Shown in pieces: positions 4,267 to 60,290 of a DNA stretch of 64,000 nucleotides. Numbering within the stretch: position 1 is the stretch's first letter; the number at the start of each line of letters is the position of its first letter. The position numbers were made by a program, and so were the translations under genes. The notes below the pieces were generated by a model that was not told the DNA's origin, did not search any database, and was given only the letters and a program-made list of their open reading frames with translations. Source of the DNA: Psychrobacter sp. PL19 (GTDB lineage: Bacteria; Pseudomonadota; Gammaproteobacteria; Pseudomonadales; Moraxellaceae); contig NZ_JAGING010000001.1 of assembly GCF_017875835.1 (NCBI RefSeq), positions 496,001-560,000 of the forward strand, read 5' to 3'.

Positions 4267-5145
4267 TTATGGCAAAGCCAACTCTGCACTAATAGGCAGA
4301 TGATCTGATAGCGTAGACCACGGCTTGCCAGTATGCACCCAGGCATCCTTCACGATCAAATTGCGCACATAAATACGGTCTAAGCTCAGTACTGGTAACT
4401 TTGCTGGAAAGGTCGGTAGTAGTTTACCATGACAGGATTTAAATGCTTCTGTTAAGCCAAGGCTAGTTGCTAGCTTATCACAAGACATCTTCTTCCAGTC
4501 ATTGAAATCACCGGCCAGAATCAGCGGTTGGTCAGGGGCAATCGCATTACGCACATAGTCACTAATTGCCTGATATTGCTTGATCCGGTCACGCTCAAAC
4601 AGATTTAAATGCGCACACAATACCACTACTGGCATATCCCAGCCTATTGGTTGCACCTCACAATGCAAGACCCCACGTTGCTCCAACTTATTAACCGTGA
4701 TATTGACGTTATGTTTGGGGTCTAATGGAAAGCGGCTAAGTACGGCATTACCATGATGACCGTTTTCGTATTCCGAGTTTTTACCGTAGCTGTTTTGTAG
4801 CTGTAAGAACTCACCGAACCATTCGTGCTGCGACTGGTCAGGATATTCGTTGTATTGTATGTTACGCCTAAGATTTTGCCCTTGCACTTCTTGTAGACAC
4901 AATATATCTGCCCCCACTGCTTCCAACGCTTGGGCGATGCCTTGTATTTTTACTTGGCGGTTCAGTGGCGACATACCTTTGTGGATGTTATAGCTGGTCA
5001 GGACCAAAGAGGTTGTAGTATTCATATACTCAGTATTCATGGAATAAGGATTGGAGATAGTTATCATCATAATTTTAATAGAGTACTCATAAAAGTACTC
5101 ATAAAAGTACTCATAAAAGTACTCATAAAAGAGCCATAACGACAT
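4267..5145 (-). CDS. endonuclease/exonuclease/phosphatase family protein
   Basis: The EEP-fold motifs are in order: TSYNIHKG, ILCLQEVQ (metal-binding Glu), NAVLSRFPL, CAHLNL, LAGDFNDW, LSLDRIYV and the terminal LSDHLPISA. The family hydrolyses phosphodiester bonds in nucleic acids or lipid headgroups; which applies here is not evident. The conserved domain starts near residue 45. Upstream lies an N-terminal extension with FYEY repeated four times, encoded by a perfect 12-bp tandem repeat (5083-5130). The listed ATG has AGG only about 4 bp upstream. The internal ATGs near 5066 and 5020 are alternative starts that would place the repeat in the leader. Confidence 0.85.
   Translation of the reverse strand: MSLWLFYEYFYEYFYEYFYEYSIKIMMITISNPYSMNTEYMNTTTSLVLTSYNIHKGMSPLNRQVKIQGIAQALEAVGADILCLQEVQGQNLRRNIQYNEYPDQSQHEWFGEFLQLQNSYGKNSEYENGHHGNAVLSRFPLDPKHNVNITVNKLEQRGVLHCEVQPIGWDMPVVVLCAHLNLFERDRIKQYQAISDYVRNAIAPDQPLILAGDFNDWKKMSCDKLATSLGLTEAFKSCHGKLLPTFPAKLPVLSLDRIYVRNLIVKDAWVHTGKPWSTLSDHLPISAELALP
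5083..5130. repeat. 12-bp perfect tandem repeat, 4 copies
   Basis: The unit gtactcataaaa is repeated four times without a mismatch. On the minus strand it falls in frame at the extreme N-terminus of the EEP-family protein and encodes YEYF repeats. A copy change would add or remove four residues without a frameshift. If the real start is downstream, the array lies in the untranslated leader instead. Confidence 0.9.
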
Positions 5146-5445
5146 TACCTAACGTTGGGCTTATGACTATCATAGACCATCATTGGCAAAACAATCAGGC
5201 TAACCAATAAAAAGTAACAAACCGTCACTACTAGAATTTTAATAACAAGCCGCTTGATCAAACGACCCCGTCTACTAATCCTATTAGATTATTATGTCTA
5301 TCAAAAGAGTGAGAAATCAGACATTAAAACTAAGTCTCACTATTCGCCCCTGATTACTGATTGCCCTATGACTGCATTCTCAGCGATTTAATATTGCTAT
5401 ATACCGTCAATTGCTAGGTAAAACCAGCGTTTGCACCTATCCATA
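5146..5445. other. intergenic region, no recognised feature
   Basis: About 300 bp separate two minus-strand genes. I see no tRNA, no strong terminator and no ORF with a convincing ribosome binding site. It should hold the promoter of the EEP gene, but no clear -35/-10 pair stands out. Confidence 0.4.
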
Positions 5446-6258
5446 CTAGCCGTAAGTTGTATCTAAATAATCAATAATATCTGCTGATTCATACATCTTA
5501 GCGTCAGTATTAGGGTCAATCAGGTAAGGAAACTGTAGCTTACCATCCATTACTTGATTCATGATGCGCTCGCGTTTACCCCCTTTAATAGGATGGTATT
5601 CGCCAAGATTTAAACGCATCCCAAAGCCGCCGATATCCTGTATTTGTTCGCGCGCAACATTGTGGTTGATATAACCTATTTCAAGCTCGCTTAATTTTTC
5701 GCGTACCAAACGGCAAAATGGACTGGCTTCGAAACCATATAACTGTAGCGGTTCTTTAGGTTTACCACGCGCTAAGTTCTTTTTCGGATGGTCCGCTTTA
5801 ACACCACGCATCATCGAGGCAATACTAGTCGCTTTATTGCTCAAAGTGGCACTGTCTCCATTAGAGGCTCGATAGTTCTCAGGGGTAGTGCCTTTTTTAG
5901 AGTAATGGGTAAATAGATGATCAATGATGACTTGTGAGTCTGGTATTTTATCACCAGTATTTTCATCGATTAAAAATGGTACTTGCGCTTTACCCGCCAA
6001 TTCTTTAAGTTCGTCACGATAGACATGACCTTTATGCGGGCTGGGACGGCTTTCATAATCAAGGTTTAAGTGAGTCATCACTTCACGTACTCGGCGAGAA
6101 TGAGGGCAGGCTTCATGCTCGTACAAGATTAACGATTGCTCCGGCTGCATCGGTGTTGCTGTACCCATATTGCCTCGTCCACCTCGTAGTAACGTCGAAG
6201 TAGTAGCTTGTAGACTTTTTAGTTTATGTCCGATCATATTATTTGAAAAACCCATCAT
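5446..6258 (-). CDS. protein with two glutaredoxin/GST-N-like thioredoxin-fold domains
   Basis: A 270-residue protein with two similar thioredoxin-fold halves. The first opens LILYEHEACPHSRRVREVM and the second LQLYGFEASPFCRLVREKL; each continues to a PxLID segment and an SxxIIDYL or SQVIIDHL motif, as in the glutathione-binding domain of GSTs. No all-helical GST C-terminal domain is present. The first half carries CPHS and the second SPFC, so each keeps one cysteine. AAGGA lies 5 bp before ATG-ATG at 6258; the frame stays open upstream to a TTG at 6339, but that start has no ribosome binding site. A glutathione-linked redox role is inference. Confidence 0.8.
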   Translation of the reverse strand: MMGFSNNMIGHKLKSLQATTSTLLRGGRGNMGTATPMQPEQSLILYEHEACPHSRRVREVMTHLNLDYESRPSPHKGHVYRDELKELAGKAQVPFLIDENTGDKIPDSQVIIDHLFTHYSKKGTTPENYRASNGDSATLSNKATSIASMMRGVKADHPKKNLARGKPKEPLQLYGFEASPFCRLVREKLSELEIGYINHNVAREQIQDIGGFGMRLNLGEYHPIKGGKRERIMNQVMDGKLQFPYLIDPNTDAKMYESADIIDYLDTTYG

Positions 6259-6451
6259 CAGTGTCCTTATTGTCATAACTGTTGTTTGTAATTGCGACTC
6301 AAGGCTATTATTTGCATTTTTTATATTATTAGCATTCAAGTGATGTATGTTTAGTAGCGCTGATTGCTATTGATTTTAGTACCGCCTATTTATTCTCAGT
6401 GGTATCTGCTAAAAATTATTTTTGGACTATTTTTAGACTGACCAATATAAA

Positions 6452-6482
6452 AGGGCATTGACTCTCAACGAACCAATGCCCT
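6452..6482 (-). terminator. rho-independent terminator after the Balon-like gene
   Basis: Perfect 9-bp inverted arms (agggcattg / caatgccct) with a 13-nt loop, followed on the minus strand by TTTTATATT. It lies about 40 bp past the stop at 6524 and closes the transcript before the downstream thioredoxin-fold gene. Confidence 0.8.
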
Positions 6483-6523
6483 CATGACGTGCTTAATGCT
6501 TACTGCTTATTCGTTACCAATCA

Positions 6524-7636
6524 TTAATAACGAGTAACTAACGCAATAGGTTGGTCTTCGCCCATAATGTCTTTAGGCATGAATACCGCTTTGCCACCAT
6601 TATGAATCACATGTTCGATAATTTCGCCAATGGCATCATCGGTTACGCCCTCTGTGGCAGTGTCATCCGCCATGATCAAGGTCTGCGCTGTTTCGTCAAT
6701 CTTGGCAGGTTGCATATAACCGCGACGAACGTATAAAGTCTCGCCAGCACCTTGATAAGCAGCACGGTAAACTTCTTGCAGGTCAGTGCGTAACATCTGA
6801 GCACCACGGGCTTTGTCAATTTCGCTCAATGCCGCTTCATGTAGTGACGTACGATATTTTTCTACCGCTTCTTGCACGCCATCAATAATATGTTGGGCGT
6901 TGCCTTCTTCAAGTTCAGTCAGGTTCGAAACAGTAGCGATGATATTATCTGGACGGTCGCATACATCTTGATAATAGCTAATATTACGCGCATCACCGAC
7001 GATCACTAACGGCATTTTGTGTTCGCCCCACAGTTCTTGTACACTTTTGTCAACACGGTTAAAGAACTCTTTTAGATAACTGTTCTCGTTGTCTGCTGAA
7101 CGATCTGAACCGCCATCACCAGTCGTGTATAAGCTATTATTTTCGATAGGGAATGGGATACTTTCCATATGGTTTTGGCTATTAGAATCTTTGTCCATTT
7201 CAACCACGACACGGTCGTTCGACGCTTCAATTAAGCGGGCCTTATCACGAGTAAGCACCACAGTATAATAATGCACGGCACTGGCCATATCACGTACTAG
7301 GTCACGAGTAGCGAAACGATCTGAAATTACCACACGCTCTACAGTATCGATAGGCATACGAACAATTTGCACATCGTCAGTACTTGCAAAAACAGCTAAA
7401 GTATCGAGGTTATAATTATGATTTAACTCTTTAATTTCAGCATGAATTTTATCTAAGATGGTGGTCGCAGTACGTTTATCATATTCTTTAATTAAGCGTT
7501 CTTCGGCTACTTTTAGCTGATTTTTTAGCGCAATAGGATCTTTTTCATTTTCAGGATGTTCACGGTGAGTCTTCACAAAGATACTTACCGCTGGATTGGC
7601 TTTGGTTTCACGTAAACTTTTTAGAGTTGCTTTCAT
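6524..7636 (-). CDS. BaeRF-family (Balon-like) ribosome hibernation factor
   Basis: A 370-residue protein with the features of the bacterial homologues of archaeo-eukaryotic release factor 1/Pelota. The N-terminal part (about 1-140) ends in the family-typical YYTVVLTRDKARLIEAS. A central alpha/beta domain contains MPLVIVGDARNISYYQDV, and the C-terminal eRF1 domain-3-like part ends NGGKAVFMPKD...PIALVTRY. No GGQ peptide-release motif is visible. From memory, Balon of Psychrobacter urativorans belongs to this family and binds the ribosomal A site with EF-Tu during cold shock or dormancy; the same function here is inferred from family membership and host type. GGAG lies 8 bp before the ATG. The gene is monocistronic, with its own predicted promoter, a leader of about 190 nt and a terminator. 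Confidence 0.82.
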   Translation of the reverse strand: MKATLKSLRETKANPAVSIFVKTHREHPENEKDPIALKNQLKVAEERLIKEYDKRTATTILDKIHAEIKELNHNYNLDTLAVFASTDDVQIVRMPIDTVERVVISDRFATRDLVRDMASAVHYYTVVLTRDKARLIEASNDRVVVEMDKDSNSQNHMESIPFPIENNSLYTTGDGGSDRSADNENSYLKEFFNRVDKSVQELWGEHKMPLVIVGDARNISYYQDVCDRPDNIIATVSNLTELEEGNAQHIIDGVQEAVEKYRTSLHEAALSEIDKARGAQMLRTDLQEVYRAAYQGAGETLYVRRGYMQPAKIDETAQTLIMADDTATEGVTDDAIGEIIEHVIHNGGKAVFMPKDIMGEDQPIALVTRY

Positions 7637-7763
7637 AAATAGTTCTCCATATTTTATTGTTTTTGAGACTTAATCATATTTGATTACTAACATGATAAGT
7701 TAGCTTTATTAAATATTTATTATTTACTTTTTTTGCTAGGGATTAAGATGATAATAGAATTAA

Positions 7764-7793
7764 CCTCCTAAATTAATAACGGCCTGTTATTAA
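7764..7793 (-). promoter_or_regulatory. hairpin plus orphan AGGAGG in the Balon-like gene leader
   Basis: On the minus strand a perfect 8-bp dyad (ttaataac / gttattaa, 5-nt loop, 7773-7793) is followed after 3 nt by a full AGGAGG (7764-7769). No ATG, GTG or TTG follows at a usable distance, so the AGGAGG does not serve an obvious ORF. It lies about 130 nt upstream of the Balon-like start, inside the predicted transcript. Confidence 0.5.
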
Positions 7794-7832
7794 TGTAACA
7801 CTCATCAGCGTAATATTCTCAGTAATATAATA

Positions 7833-7861
7833 TTTATATTCCACTGCGTTCATCCTACCAA
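7833..7861 (-). promoter_or_regulatory. predicted sigma70 promoter of the Balon-like gene
   Basis: On the minus strand TTGGTA (7856-7861) is followed by a 17-nt spacer and TATAAA (7833-7838), a good match to the sigma70 consensus. A start near 7826 would give an AT-rich untranslated leader of about 190 nt. It is the best promoter I can find in the 600-bp gap before the divergent oligopeptidase gene, in which I see no other gene. Confidence 0.5.
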
Positions 7862-8238
7862 TTTCACCCTGCTGGCTGTAGGGTTAGTTTGCAAGCAAAT
7901 GATGACACTTTGTAAGCAAGTTAGTCAATATTGGGTATTTATAAATTCATTTGCTTAGGCTTCTGCTATTCAGGCAGAATACTTAGGCAGGTTATGACTT
8001 GTACAACTTAAAAACTAGGATTTGAAAGTATAAGTACTAGAGAATCTCAGTAGTTAGGCGTTGAGTACTTGAGAGTATAGATAATATGTATGTGCAGTAG
8101 GCCTAGGCTTGCATTCTTACCCCTCTATACCCATCTTTTAAGTAGCCATTAATATTTAGACCATTCTTAGCAATCTGCAGCCACGACCTACAAAATTTTA
8201 ATTATAAATAACACCATTTATTAATATTGGATCTCTTT

Positions 8239-10440
8239 ATGACTACTCTTAATTCGGATTTGCACCTTGTTGACTTTGCCGCTACTAATCCAAGCGATCT
8301 ACAGACGCAAGTAACCACGGCTATTGATCAGGCTAATACCTTTTTAGATGAGCTGGCATCGATAACGAATAATGATGAAGGTGCTGTTGGCATCAGCGCC
8401 AAGCAGGCACTAGCGGATGTCATGGCCTTTGATCATATCAATCTGGCATTGGATCGCAGTTGGGGTATTTTGTCGCATCTTAATGGCGTAATGAGCAATG
8501 ATGATATTCGTCATGTGCATCATGAGCTGCTGCCGAAGCTATCTGCTTATGGCACTCGGGTCGGGCAACATCAACCCCTATTTACTCGTTATCAAGCCAT
8601 TATTAATGATAAGGCATTTTTAGCGCAGCTGGAACCTGCTCGGGCGCGGGCGTTTGAACTGGCTCTACAAAGCTTTGAGTTATCAGGGGTGGCGTTACCA
8701 AAATCTGAGCAAGATACGTTTGCCGCTATTCAAAGCCAGCTATCGACCTTGTCTGCGACATTCTCAGACCATATTTTGGATGCCACCCAAGCTTATGTGC
8801 TACCTATTGAACAACCACAGTTGGCAGGCTTGACTGACGGTGGTTTAGCGCTATTAGCCGATGCTGGTGCCCAATATAAAGTACGCGAGTTGGCCAATGG
8901 CTCACTTTCGCAAGCTGAGAGTGATGCCCTGCCTACCCCTTATTATGTGGCTACCTTAAATATCCCTGTTTATCTAGCAGTCATGACTCATGCAAATGAT
9001 CGCAGTTTACGCGAAACGTTATACCGTGCTTATGTCACTCGTGCCTCGGAATTTGATAATCATACTAATAGCAAAGGTGAATCACTAAATAATGCTGACA
9101 TCATGAGTCAAATCATGCAACTGCGCGAGCAAAAAGCCCAATTACTAGGCTTTACTAATTACGCTGAGGTGTCTTTATCCACTAAGATGGCAGACAATGT
9201 ACCGGAAGTTGAAACCTTTTTACGCAGTCTAGCGGCGCAAGCAACACCAACTGCCAAACAAGACTTAACACAACTACAAGAATGCGCACGCGATTATGAC
9301 ATCACAGACTTGCAACCGTGGGATAGCGCCTATATTGCCGAAAAGGTCAAACAAAATAAGTTCAGCTTATCGCAAGAAGAGATTCGTCCCTACTTTCCAT
9401 TACCAAAAGTCATTGATGGTTTATTTGCCATTGTTAAGCGCCTATACGGTATTACAGTGCGTGAACAAAGTGCTTCTAACACTAGTGAAACTGTCGTATC
9501 ACGCTGGCATGACGATGTGCGTTTTTACCAGTTGTTTGATGAAAAAGACACCTTGATTGGTGGTTTTTACTTTGATTTATTTGCTCGCAGTGGTAAGCGT
9601 GGCGGCGCATGGATGAGTGGTTTTCAGTCCCGTTATAGTCATGAGGAGCTGAACCATCATCAGCTACCGGTCTGTTTCATGGTCGGCAACTTTACCCCAG
9701 CGCTTGACAGTAAACCAAGCTTGCTCACCCATGATGAAGTGTTGACCTTATTTCATGAGTTTGGTCATGGTCTGCATCATTTATTAACCCAGGTTACTGT
9801 TGGTGATGTCGCCGGTGTCAATGGCGTAGAGTGGGATGCAGTCGAGCTACCCAGTCAGTTTATGGAAAACTGGGCGTGGGATGCTGAAGGCATTGCACTC
9901 ATCAGTAGTCATGTAGAGACCGGTGAGCCATTACCCAAAGACAAGCTTGACGCCTTATTAGCGGCCAAAAACTTCCAAAGTGGTATGCAGACTCTGCGTC
10001 AGATAGAATTTTCACTTTTTGACTTACTGATTCACGCGCACACGCCAGCTTTAGATTATGACGGTATTCTCGCGACTTTAGATAATGTGCGCAGTGATAT
10101 TGCTATTATGGAAACCCCTGACTACAACCGTTTTACTAATGGCTTCAGTCATATCTTTGCCGGTGGTTATGCAGCGGGATACTATTCTTACAAATGGGCG
10201 GAGCTACTATCTGCAGATGCCTTTAGTAAGTTTGAAGAAGAAGGCATCTTTAATCCTATAACGGGTAAAGCTTTCCGTGACACTATTTTATCCGTGGGTG
10301 GCAGCTTACCCGCTAAGACTAACTTTGAGAACTTTCGTGGTCGTAGTGCTAGTATTGATGCCTTATTACGCCATAGTGGCTTTAGTAACGCGACTCAAAA
10401 TGAGGCGGCTAATACGCAGATCAAACGCGAGGTCAGCTAA
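8239..10440 (+). CDS. prlC: M3 family metallopeptidase (oligopeptidase A type)
   Basis: A 733-residue cytosolic zinc peptidase. The HEFGHGLHH motif (first histidine near residue 506) supplies two zinc ligands, and the downstream NGVEWDAVELPSQFMENWAW segment supplies the glutamate ligand and substrate-binding residues, as in oligopeptidase A. The enzyme degrades short peptides, including released signal peptides. I place the start at the ATG with GGA 7 bp upstream rather than the in-frame TTG at 8227. The stop overlaps the start of the next gene (TAATG). Confidence 0.93.
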   Translation: MTTLNSDLHLVDFAATNPSDLQTQVTTAIDQANTFLDELASITNNDEGAVGISAKQALADVMAFDHINLALDRSWGILSHLNGVMSNDDIRHVHHELLPKLSAYGTRVGQHQPLFTRYQAIINDKAFLAQLEPARARAFELALQSFELSGVALPKSEQDTFAAIQSQLSTLSATFSDHILDATQAYVLPIEQPQLAGLTDGGLALLADAGAQYKVRELANGSLSQAESDALPTPYYVATLNIPVYLAVMTHANDRSLRETLYRAYVTRASEFDNHTNSKGESLNNADIMSQIMQLREQKAQLLGFTNYAEVSLSTKMADNVPEVETFLRSLAAQATPTAKQDLTQLQECARDYDITDLQPWDSAYIAEKVKQNKFSLSQEEIRPYFPLPKVIDGLFAIVKRLYGITVREQSASNTSETVVSRWHDDVRFYQLFDEKDTLIGGFYFDLFARSGKRGGAWMSGFQSRYSHEELNHHQLPVCFMVGNFTPALDSKPSLLTHDEVLTLFHEFGHGLHHLLTQVTVGDVAGVNGVEWDAVELPSQFMENWAWDAEGIALISSHVETGEPLPKDKLDALLAAKNFQSGMQTLRQIEFSLFDLLIHAHTPALDYDGILATLDNVRSDIAIMETPDYNRFTNGFSHIFAGGYAAGYYSYKWAELLSADAFSKFEEEGIFNPITGKAFRDTILSVGGSLPAKTNFENFRGRSASIDALLRHSGFSNATQNEAANTQIKREVS

Positions 10441-10697
10441 TGCGTTATAAGTCTCCGCGCCCAAAACGGCAGTTTTTAGCAGGGGTTCGCTGCCCTAAAT
10501 GTGAAGCGGCAGATGCGGTAGTGCAAGTCAATATCGTGACACCTGAGCCTGATGAATATATTGAATGTACCCAATGTGGGCATACAGAACATCGTCCTGA
10601 CCCTGATGAAATTAGTGCCAAAAACCATGCAGAAGACCAGCTTGCGCGTGATGTCATGGCGACCGGCACAAGCGGTACTGTGAAATTTAAAATCTAA
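10440..10697 (+). CDS. YheV-type zinc ribbon protein
   Basis: An 85-residue protein with two CxxC knuckles, CPKC and CTQC, about 40 residues apart, followed by GHTEHRPDP, which matches the YheV/DUF2387 putative metal-binding family. The first residues (RYKSPRPKRQFLAGVRCPKC) are basic and typical of that family. The function is unknown. It overlaps the oligopeptidase stop by one base, so the two are probably co-translated. Confidence 0.85.
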   Translation: MRYKSPRPKRQFLAGVRCPKCEAADAVVQVNIVTPEPDEYIECTQCGHTEHRPDPDEISAKNHAEDQLARDVMATGTSGTVKFKI

Positions 10698-10769
10698 AGT
10701 TTCCAGACAGAATACTTAAGATCAAAACCTGAGTTCTTATGTTGACCCTTAAATAATATTTAAGACATT

Positions 10770-10795
10770 AGCCTATCAATAGATAGGCTTTTTGT
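10770..10795 (+). terminator. terminator after the yheV-type gene
   Basis: Arms agcctatc / gataggct with a 4-nt loop, followed by a T run, about 70 bp past the stop. Confidence 0.8.
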
Positions 10796-10868
10796 TATAG
10801 ATAGGTTTTTTATTTTGGATTTTAAGGTCTTAGACTGTTTTTTATACCACTTACTGTCACGAGATATC

Positions 10869-11006
10869 TATAGTCAATGAAAAGTAATATCGATACATAA
10901 CCTACTGCTGGTATAAGCTTTTCTTACTTGCTGTGCCTACGCAGACGGAGGCTGTAAAAAGCTTATACCAGCAGTACCGTAGTGTTTTTGAGGTATTTTA
11001 ACTATA
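10869..11006 (+). repeat. 138-bp dispersed hairpin element, copy A
   Basis: Bounded by TATAGT and ACTATA. Internal arms tactgctggtataagctttt and its complement (20 bp, perfect in this copy) enclose a conserved centre with tgcctacgcagac. The full-length copies at 15386, 52784 and 57465 have the same length, and a fifth is cut at 63883. It lies between the convergent yheV-type and pnp genes, past both terminators. Confidence 0.9.
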
Positions 11007-11130
11007 TTATGGCAGCTCTACAGTTCACTCATGCCCCCATAAAGTATCCCACTTTAGATATCAGCTTGTAAATTATTAACATGTCTCAGTTGTTTTTAAA
11101 TGACGGATCATACTCAAATTTTAAGCCCAT

Positions 11131-11175
11131 AAAAAAACCGCCTTGAGCACTAATAATAAGTGATTCAAAGCGGTT
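11131..11175 (-). terminator. pnp terminator
   Basis: A long imperfect hairpin (aaccgccttgagcact pairing with agtgattcaaagcggtt) followed on the minus strand by seven Ts, about 50 bp past the pnp stop. Confidence 0.8.
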
Positions 11176-11222
11176 CTTTTTATTGAGGCGACATTCTAGT
11201 GCTACATTAGTAGAATAGTCAC

Positions 11223-13334
11223 TTAGCTCTGTTCAATGCCTTTCATAGTCAATTTAATGCGACCACGGTTATCAACGTCTTGGACAAATACTTTAACGAC
11301 TTGACCTTCTTTGAGATAATCAGACACATTCTCTACGCGCTCTTCTGCGATTTGAGAGATATGGACTAGGCCATCAGTATTTGGTAGGACGTTAACGAAA
11401 GCACCGAAGTCAACGATACGAGCAACCGTACCTTCATAGATTTTACCTACTTCGACTTCTGCAGTTAAGGCTTCGATTTTACTAATAGCGGCTTTGGTCG
11501 CGGCTTTATTTTCACCAAAGATACGAATCGTGCCGCCGTCATCAATATCGATAACCGCGCCTGTTTCTTCGGTTAGCTGACGAATGGTTGCGCCGCCTTT
11601 ACCAATAACTTCACGAATTTTATCTGGGTTGATTTCAATCACTGCATAGTTAGGCGCATGTGCGTTGATTTCAGTACGGCTTGCGGGCAGTACTTTATTC
11701 ATCGCATCTAAGATATGGATACGACCAGCATGGGCTTGTTTGAGCGCTTGCTCCATGATGTCTGGGGTAATGCCTTCAATTTTAATGTCCATCTGTAGCG
11801 CAGTGATACCGTCTTTAGAGCCAGCAACTTTAAAGTCCATGTCGCCAAGATGATCTTCATCACCTAAAATGTCAGACAATACGGCAAAGCGCTCGCCTTC
11901 TTTAACCAGACCCATCGCGATACCAGCAACGGGTGCTTTCATTGGTACACCAGCGTCCATCAATGCCAAGCTGGCACCACAAACAGAGGCCATAGAAGAT
12001 GAACCATTTGACTCAGTGATCTCTGATACCACACGGATAACATACGGGAAGCGTTCGCTATCAGGAAGCATCGCTTGTACACCGCGGCGCGCTAAGCGAC
12101 CATGACCGATTTCGCGACGTTTAGGAATACCTTCACGGCCGGTTTCGCCGACTGAGAAATGCGGGAAGTTGTAATGCAACATGAAATGGTCACGAATAGT
12201 ACCACCTAGCGAGTCAATCATATTGACATCACGGCTGTTGCCAAGGGTAGTGGTCACTAATGCTTGGGTTTCACCACGAGTAAATAACGCTGAACCATGG
12301 GTAAATGGTAACACGCCTACTTGTACATCAAGGGCACGTACCGTATCAAGGTCACGACCATCAATACGTGGTTTGCCAGACAAGATGCTGTCACGAACCG
12401 TACGATATTTTAGCTCGTTATAGATTTCTTTTAGCTCAGATACATTGTTGCTATAAGCTTCTGACTCTGAATCACCTGCTAGTGTTCCGATAGCCGCTTG
12501 CTTAATATCATCCAACTTAGTGTAACGTTCTTGCTTGTCAGTAATGGTATAAGCGTCAGCAACTTGTACACCGAACTGCTCTTTCATAGCACTTTCAAGC
12601 GCTTGGTCGTGCTTAGGAGCAGTAAACTGTTGCTTAGCAGTACCTACTTCTGCTGCTAATGAGGCAATATTATCAATAACAATTTGCTGTTGCTCATGGC
12701 CATATAGTACAGCGCCTAGCATTTGGTCTTCTGATAGCTCTTTGGCTTCAGACTCTACCATCAATACTGCCGATTTTGTACCAGCGACGATTAAGTCCAG
12801 ATCACTCTCTTTAAGTTGCTCAAGCGTTGGGTTTAGAACGTATTCACCGTTAATAAAGCCAACACGTGCACCGGCAACAGGGCCGTTAAAAGGCGCGTCA
12901 GAGATAGATAACGCTGCTGAAGCGCCAATCAATGCGGCGATATCTGCAGATTGAGTTTTATCTGATGACACTACTGTAGCTGTGATCTGAACCTCGTTCA
13001 AATAGCCTTCAGGAAATAACGGACGAATTGGACGGTCAATGAGACGCGAGGTTAGGGTTTCAAACTCGCTAGCGCGGCCTTCGCGTTTGCCGTAAGCCCC
13101 TGGAATCTTACCAGCAGCATACATTTTTTCTTGATAGTTAACCGTCAATGGAAAAAAGTTTTGCCCAGCTTTTGCTTCAGACTTAACGACTGCTGCTACT
13201 AATACAGTAACGCCGCCCATGTGAACTAAAATAGAGTTGGCTTGGCGAGCAATACGACCAGTCTCAATGATAACTTGCTGGTTGCCATATTGGAATTCAC
13301 GTTTAATGGTGTTGAACATTGTCGGATTTGTCAT
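11223..13334 (-). CDS. pnp: polynucleotide phosphorylase
   Basis: A 703-residue protein with two RNase PH-like domains, a KH domain ([20 protein letters not shown]) and a C-terminal S1 domain ([26 protein letters not shown]), the full PNPase layout and normal length. It degrades RNA 3' to 5' by phosphorolysis and is a degradosome partner. It is the last gene of the conserved rpsO-pnp segment, but a 689-bp gap and the rpsO terminator separate them, so pnp probably has its own promoter and leader, where PNPase autoregulation usually acts. Confidence 0.97.
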
Positions 13335-29023: not shown

Positions 29024-29030
29024 AGGCTAT

Positions 29031-29095
29031 TCTTAAGTACTACTCTTAAGTACTACTCTTAAGTACTACTCTTAAGTACTACTCTTAAGTACGAT
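29031..29095. repeat. 13-bp tandem repeat, about 5 copies
   Basis: The unit tcttaagtactac is repeated four times without error, with a fifth, changed copy, starting 7 bp after the pilD stop. The unit length is not a multiple of three, so it is clearly non-coding. Confidence 0.92.
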
Positions 29096-29208
29096 GCTTA
29101 AGGTCGCTATATCGCCCGACTCGGCCTGTGTTATTATGTTTATTGGTTATTATATTTATTTATTGATTGTTTTTATTCTTTATTCTATCAGCCAAATAAG
29201 TCATTCCT

Positions 29209-47210: not shown

Positions 47211-47234
47211 TACTACTCTCAGCCCTATTCATAA

Positions 47235-47282
47235 TCCCAATCCCAATCCCAATCCCAATCCCAATCCCAATCCCAATCCCAA
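47235..47282. repeat. 6-bp tandem repeat, 8 copies
   Basis: The unit tcccaa is repeated eight times without error, starting 25 bp after the holC stop, in the 372-bp spacer before sstT. The rest of the spacer is AT-rich and shows no gene. Confidence 0.95.
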
Positions 47283-60065: not shown

Positions 60066-60218
60066 GCATCACGCTTAGTTGATGGCTAGTCCTATATGTC
60101 ACTATTGTCCTTTAATACCTATCCTGCCCTTTCTTAGTCCCAGATCACTTAATGGAAGTCATTGAGTAAGGGCCAGTCATTAAAACCAGTCATTAAAAAT
60201 AGTGTGTAAGGGTCCCGT

Positions 60219-60290
60219 CACACTATTTATCACACTATTTATCACACTATTTATCACACTATTTATCACACTATCTATCACACTGTCTTG
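60219..60290. repeat. 12-bp tandem repeat, 5-6 copies
   Basis: The unit cacactatttat is repeated four times perfectly, then once with one change and once degenerate, starting about 150 bp after dsbB. The same heptamer in reverse (agtgtg) stands just before it. The rest of the 548-bp spacer shows no gene. Confidence 0.92.

Follow-up and report, generated by a model that had tools for sequence, protein, structure and literature searches.

The open reading frame at positions 6524-7636 of the window, as we call the whole 64,000-nucleotide stretch of the Psychrobacter sp. PL19 genome analyzed here, encodes, with a probability that we put at about 0.96, the Psychrobacter orthologue of Balon, a hibernation factor of the ribosomal A site; this estimate covers both the identity of the protein and its role. 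The Balon protein itself is already known, and ordinary for the genus. Upstream of the gene lies a conserved control region, probably an activator-dependent promoter, that is new as far as the literature searched goes: no description of this module was found there, mostly among papers free of subscription.

Identity of the window protein

The gene is intact and starts with an ATG on the minus strand (Table 1), in agreement with the 370-residue reading frame of the preliminary description. The NCBIfam equivalog AOC03_06830_fam_RHF (NF052287) matches residues 5-370 along the entire model (1-361 of 361) with 521.1 bits, 191 bits above its cut-off of 330. Among the Pfam families, baeRF_family3 (PF18845) covers residues 122-296 with 110.7 bits (gathering score 31.5), and the baeRF families 7, 6, 11 and 8 match more weakly, only family 7 of these lying above its cut-off. 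Among solved structures, chain 8rd8_B matches best (E 9.4e-205, residues 1-370) and is identical to the window protein in 308 of 370 aligned columns (83.2%) over the full length; cut into three parts at boundaries of our own choosing, the identity amounts to 103/121 (residues 1-121), 133/155 (122-276) and 72/94 (277-370). A profile of 12 relatives retrieves the same chain (E 1e-211), with no other match reaching an E-value under 0.5. The Balon-like, BaeRF-group identity proposed beforehand is thus borne out by the equivalog, by baeRF_family3 and by the end-to-end alignment to 8rd8_B. Since this alignment has just one gap, of one residue, no whole loop is missing; the published lasso loop, bL27 trap and EF-Tu beta-loop come without residue numbers by which to place them in the accessible text. 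In the PDB, the molecule name of 8rd8 chain B is "Methyl-accepting chemotaxis protein", a label that could mislead annotation.

Neither of the two strings by which aeRF1 is recognized, GGQ and NIKS, occurs in the 370-residue protein, as had rightly been said of GGQ. In place of NIKS or of loop A, we found an HP motif at residue 27; in a set of 12 aligned sequences, P28 does not vary and H27 hardly does. The segments quoted in the preliminary description are all present (YYTVVLTRDKARLIE at residue 123, VIVGDARN at 211, NGGKAVFMP at 346 and ALVTRY at 365), yet the first of them, which had been placed in the N-terminal part, instead opens the middle domain as delimited by baeRF_family3.

The AlphaFold model, based on 12 sequences, is of moderate confidence (mean pLDDT 63.7, pTM 0.50), and its stretches under pLDDT 50 include residues 1-27 and 94-120. 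Three P. urativorans Balon chains occupy Foldseek ranks 1-3, over 366-368 columns, followed below rank 3 by aRF1, mycobacterial Balons, eRF1 and Pelota; the Foldseek titles name 8RD8, 8RDV and 8RDW as Balon complexes, and PMC10901736 includes these entries among the structures of the Balon study. This ranking points to a three-domain fold of the aeRF1 type, in a model of moderate confidence with TM-scores near 0.5. Despite 83% identity, the TM-score to 8rd8_B is 0.49 with an rmsd of 12 A, and the model therefore does not reproduce the relative placement of the domains. The comparison with ribosome-bound Balon that had been suggested as a check thus holds for the ranking of the Balon chains and not for their domain arrangement.

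With P. urativorans Balon, AOC03_06830 (8RD8, 8RDV, 8RDW), the window protein shares the genus, the high full-length identity, the HP motif, the lack of GGQ and NIKS, and the presence of a RaiA-type gene in the genome; it differs in having 370 rather than 369 residues and in 62 of the 370 aligned columns (gap included), and it is known here from sequence. The mycobacterial Balons Msmeg1130 and Rv2629 agree with it in overall fold, taking Foldseek ranks 5 (8v9j_z), 6 (8v9l_z) and 8 (8v9k_z), but share only 13-14% identity, and the MSMEG_1130 equivalog model gives 26.3 bits on the window protein against a cut-off of 480. With aeRF1 and Pelota, the protein shares an aeRF1-like architecture by structure search, but has neither GGQ nor NIKS.

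Proposed role in ribosome hibernation

By orthology, and in line with the role suggested beforehand, the window protein would be an mRNA-independent plug of the A site that acts with EF-Tu(GDP), binding both the ribosome and EF-Tu. Upon cold shock or starvation, it would enter an empty A site without reading mRNA, with the HP motif of its N-domain touching the decoding centre; it would sit beside the peptidyl-transferase centre, devoid of a catalytic GGQ, and its C-domain would hold EF-Tu(GDP). The outcome would be the storage of vacant ribosomes, together with RaiA, and of ribosomes that are still loaded. According to PMC10901736, the HP motif of the published Balon contacts the decoding centre, and Balon was seen to occupy the A site both upon treatment with ice and in the stationary phase. 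That work was done with P. urativorans and with a balon knockout of P. arcticus, which is described there as growing slightly faster in optimal conditions and as having a growth defect on the first recovery day after three months' dormancy (PMC10901736).

That the protein is a member of the wider baeRF group that has drifted to another ribosome task (e.g., rescue or nascent-chain release) rather than hibernation appears extremely improbable, as the weaker matches to the other baeRF families and the structural matches to aRF1, eRF1 and Pelota are set against the absence of GGQ and NIKS and against an equivalog match and a full-length identity that indicate Balon itself. A point against the Balon reading is the location of raiA, which most often adjoins Balon genes (PMC10901736), whereas the two genes stand apart in the PL19 genome, a single contig of 3,119,997 bases with a single copy of balon (balon at 502527-503636, raiA at 301804-302097). 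This genome has one S30AE (RaiA/HPF) gene, as do all 26 of the Psychrobacter genomes searched, and no match to RMF, for which the E. coli control did match.

Distribution of balon

The Balon model matches 64 of the 149 genomes of the family, 61 of them above the cut-off, and one of 14 control genomes, below the cut-off. Psychrobacter accounts for 41 of the 64 matches, PL19 included, and among the 20 genomes listed out of the 85 without a match, none belongs to this genus. In named genomes we found 67 balon loci, with best-segment identities of 67-87%, and all 67 carry Psychrobacter titles, which fits the earlier remark on a Psychrobacter-type genome. Two copies look either broken or affected by a sequencing error: that of Psychrobacter sp. 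WY6 (L059:5001-6104) has an in-frame stop, and that of JCM 18901 (L064:5113-6110) is matched in two pieces. In the Moraxellaceae genus g15, two weak partial matches with two TAG stops inside (G110:C1:878260-878541, L171, and G143:C88:224940-225221, L170) are possibly remnants or due to chance. A genome of genus g2 carries a distant, near-full-length relative (G049:C43:53236-54315, L169; 150 bits against the cut-off of 330, 22% identity).

Genomic setting

The divergent gene upstream of balon presumably encodes a PrlC/OpdA-like oligopeptidase. A terminator-like stem-loop lies just 3' of balon, from a scan that yielded 3 such sites in 2 kb versus 1.5 expected, and the next open reading frame on the same strand starts at 6339, 184 bp past the balon stop. 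The gene is thus most likely monocistronic, as the preliminary description had it, on the evidence of the nucleotide sequence only; it would be transcribed alone, from a genus-conserved and probably activator-dependent promoter module about 210 nt upstream of its ATG. In 66 of the 67 named Psychrobacter loci, balon has an oligopeptidase-like gene upstream in divergent orientation, the exception being a locus with just 411 bases on that side (L057). The GST-like gene found downstream of balon in the window is present in only 9 of the 67.

Table 1. Positions of balon and of the elements around it in the window.
Feature	Position	Strand	Description and basis
balon open reading frame	6524..7636	-	370 codons, 370 aa; intact, ATG start; AOC03_06830 orthologue
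HP motif	7553..7558	-	codons 27-28
Ribosome-binding site	7644..7648	-	GGAGA, 7 nt 5' of ATG; sequence reading, bin -20 to -11 with 0.76 agreement
Terminator-like stem-loop	6451..6483	-	14 pairs, just 3' of balon; terminator scan
Predicted 5' leader	7637..7845	-	about 209 nt; start deduced from the -10
Extended -10, TGGTAGGAT	7852..7860	-	TGnTAnnnT, 27 bp after the box
Conserved CCCTACAG	7876..7883	-	over the -35 position, non-consensus -35; alignment and column statistics
28-bp box	7888..7915	-	half-sites TTACA, CATCA and TTGCA, CA-to-CA spacing 11 and 10 bp; candidate site of an activator
Oligopeptidase gene (presumed)	8227..10440	+	divergent neighbour upstream of balon

Several other sites of the window deserve mention. 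Upstream of the oligopeptidase gene, positions 8108-8137 (plus strand) read CTTGCAT-N15-CCCATCTT, partly within a bin conserved between species, and bear what we take to be a resemblance to the sigma-32 heat-shock promoter consensus. A perfect 12-bp tandem repeat of 4.2 copies (5082-5131) encodes FYEYFYEY at the start of the open reading frame 4267-5145, whose actual start probably lies more internally. Perfect or nearly perfect short tandem arrays are found at 29027-29102 (13-bp units), 47233-47282 (6-bp) and 60218-60284 (12-bp).

A conserved promoter module upstream of balon

We aligned 650 nt upstream of balon from the window and 74 other loci (75 sequences, distinct in their last 200 nt), to which 98 loci were reduced by dropping L064 with its split match and by merging identical upstreams. 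A block approximately 280-250 nt before the ATG of the window stands out from poorly conserved surroundings, with an agreement of 0.77-0.86 in 10-nt bins; other well-kept bins lie at about -640 (0.75) and -500 (0.82), toward the oligopeptidase, and at the ribosome-binding site. The box of the module carries CA at positions 3-4, 14-15 and 24-25, and in 51 distinct elements the middle one is kept at 95% or more, though it is not part of the composite pattern described below. Among the 48 distinct named loci that pass the box-score cut, the offset of TGnTAnnnT behind the box is 27 bp without exception, as it is in the upstreams that carry this composite pattern, while the distance from the box to the ATG ranges from 150 to 512 bp (sd 72) in the 48 loci.

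Allowing up to three mismatches, the 28-bp pattern has one match in the PL19 genome, and a 40-bp pattern is found in 86 of 105 Psychrobacter genomes, in one copy each, and in none of the other 19; its reversed control gives no match in the same 105 genomes. Wherever balon coordinates are also listed (35/35), the 40-bp element lies upstream of the gene on the same strand, 138-348 bp from the ATG. At that stringency, six of the 41 balon-bearing Psychrobacter genomes have no match, three of which (L070, L071 and L095) display the same geometry with changed letters, and the other three (L069, L080 and L088) fail the composite pattern given below. The spacing of 11 and 10 bp between the CAs recurs even in the divergent lineages L057, L070, L071 and L095, in none of which the box profile found a match.

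A composite pattern (TTACA, the third half-site, 28 bases and TGnTAnnnT) is present in 68 of the 75 upstreams, in none of their 75 reverse complements and in none of 3000 dinucleotide shuffles, counts that are not independent evidence because the pattern was built from these same, related sequences; the shuffles tell only that it does not arise by chance. The seven misses are L080, L067, L088, L069, L062, L063 and L094, of which L067 is arranged in the same way but shorter by one base, and L094 comes from another genus. L069, which like L080 and L088 fails the composite pattern, is recovered by the box profile (E 2.5e-5), as the only match among the 14 sources given to it. A generic promoter scan, with 8 sites versus 7.5 expected by chance, did not list the module, and no such element was recognized by eye in other Moraxellaceae genera, among nine upstreams from 11 regions (L170 and L171 giving no balon match in this comparison).

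The sequence and length of the predicted leader differ between species. Its fold is unremarkable (z-score -1.54, with 16 of 200 shuffles no less stable) and no Rfam family exceeds its cut-off over positions 5000-11300, and we therefore rejected a structured leader RNA.

How the module may work

PhoB/OmpR-type boxes consist of half-sites in tandem, spaced by 10-11 bp, and precede a promoter whose -35 is poor. The balon box is similar in its half-site spacing and poor -35, but differs in its half-site (nnnCA), in having three copies and in ending 30 bp before the -10 hexamer. The spacing of 10-11 bp, in a box that stops shortly before a non-consensus -35, suggests an activator that binds in tandem, e.g., of the OmpR/PhoB type. 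We tentatively propose, at somewhat less than even odds, that the triple CA box, a single-copy site, is where a dedicated activator turns on balon; this activator would probably be a response regulator of that type, binding in tandem.

A simpler possibility, which we regard as rather unlikely, is an ordinary sigma-70 promoter that is kept for its unusual -35 and works without an activator. The -35/-10 spacing of 17 (in our placement) and the extended -10 are typical of such promoters, and regulators usually have several sites, whereas the PL19 genome holds no convincing second copy of the box: with a profile of 38 elements, the second-best match is partial and has an E-value of 0.06 (150 of 1207 first-look candidates scored). 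The lack of a convincing second site thus points either to a regulator whose sites are few or degenerate, or to an unusually built promoter that is constitutive. Against a plain sigma-70 promoter stand the 28-bp box upstream of the -35 position, which is conserved more than the spacer, and the persistence of the CA spacing in the four divergent lineages.

It is less probable still that the block acts on the divergent oligopeptidase gene, or on both, rather than on balon alone. Its place between the two genes speaks for this, as does a spacing to the approximate start of the oligopeptidase (151-497, sd 60 in the 48 loci) that is no more variable than that to balon; but the extended -10 is at a fixed distance from the box in the direction of balon, the reverse strand of the 75 upstreams gives no match, and another conserved block, that at about -500 from the balon ATG, is nearer to the oligopeptidase.

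Other candidates for the regulatory circuit were tried and rejected. A multi-gene regulon was discarded on the single strict match in the PL19 genome and on the partial second match of the profile among the 150 scored candidates of 1207; a very loose pattern of two half-sites gave 99 forward and 90 reverse matches versus 67 and 72 for its reversed control. We do not propose a regulon shared with raiA either: the geometry upstream of raiA is different, and the box profile finds none of the five raiA loci that it was run on. In Acinetobacter, the sister genus, BfmR acts as a stress regulator of the OmpR type, and it was considered here for this reason. It was dropped as the regulator of the box, as no BfmR consensus was found in the accessible text of PMC5967708, PMC11784087 and PMC4888885.

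The upstreams of raiA have features of their own. In an alignment of 24 of 26 Psychrobacter loci (L130-L153; L154 and L155, where no start was recognized, were dropped), most sequences, L133 among them, carry two TTACA repeats 10 bp apart together with the string TTGCTACT and a block, TTTTCATGACAAATTAGAG, that is very conserved.

Implications

As another orthologue within a family that was discovered in Psychrobacter, the protein has little impact taken alone, and the greater interest lies with the promoter module. The main text of PMC10901736, in which neither "promoter" nor "upstream" occurs, leaves aside what prompts Psychrobacter to produce Balon. If a dedicated activator does act at the box, Balon would respond to a signal other than that of raiA, and the long, fast-evolving leader would add a second layer of control. 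The 64-bp element, whose first 40 bp are those matched in 86 of 105 Psychrobacter genomes, offers a direct handle on this regulator in P. arcticus, for which a balon knockout exists.
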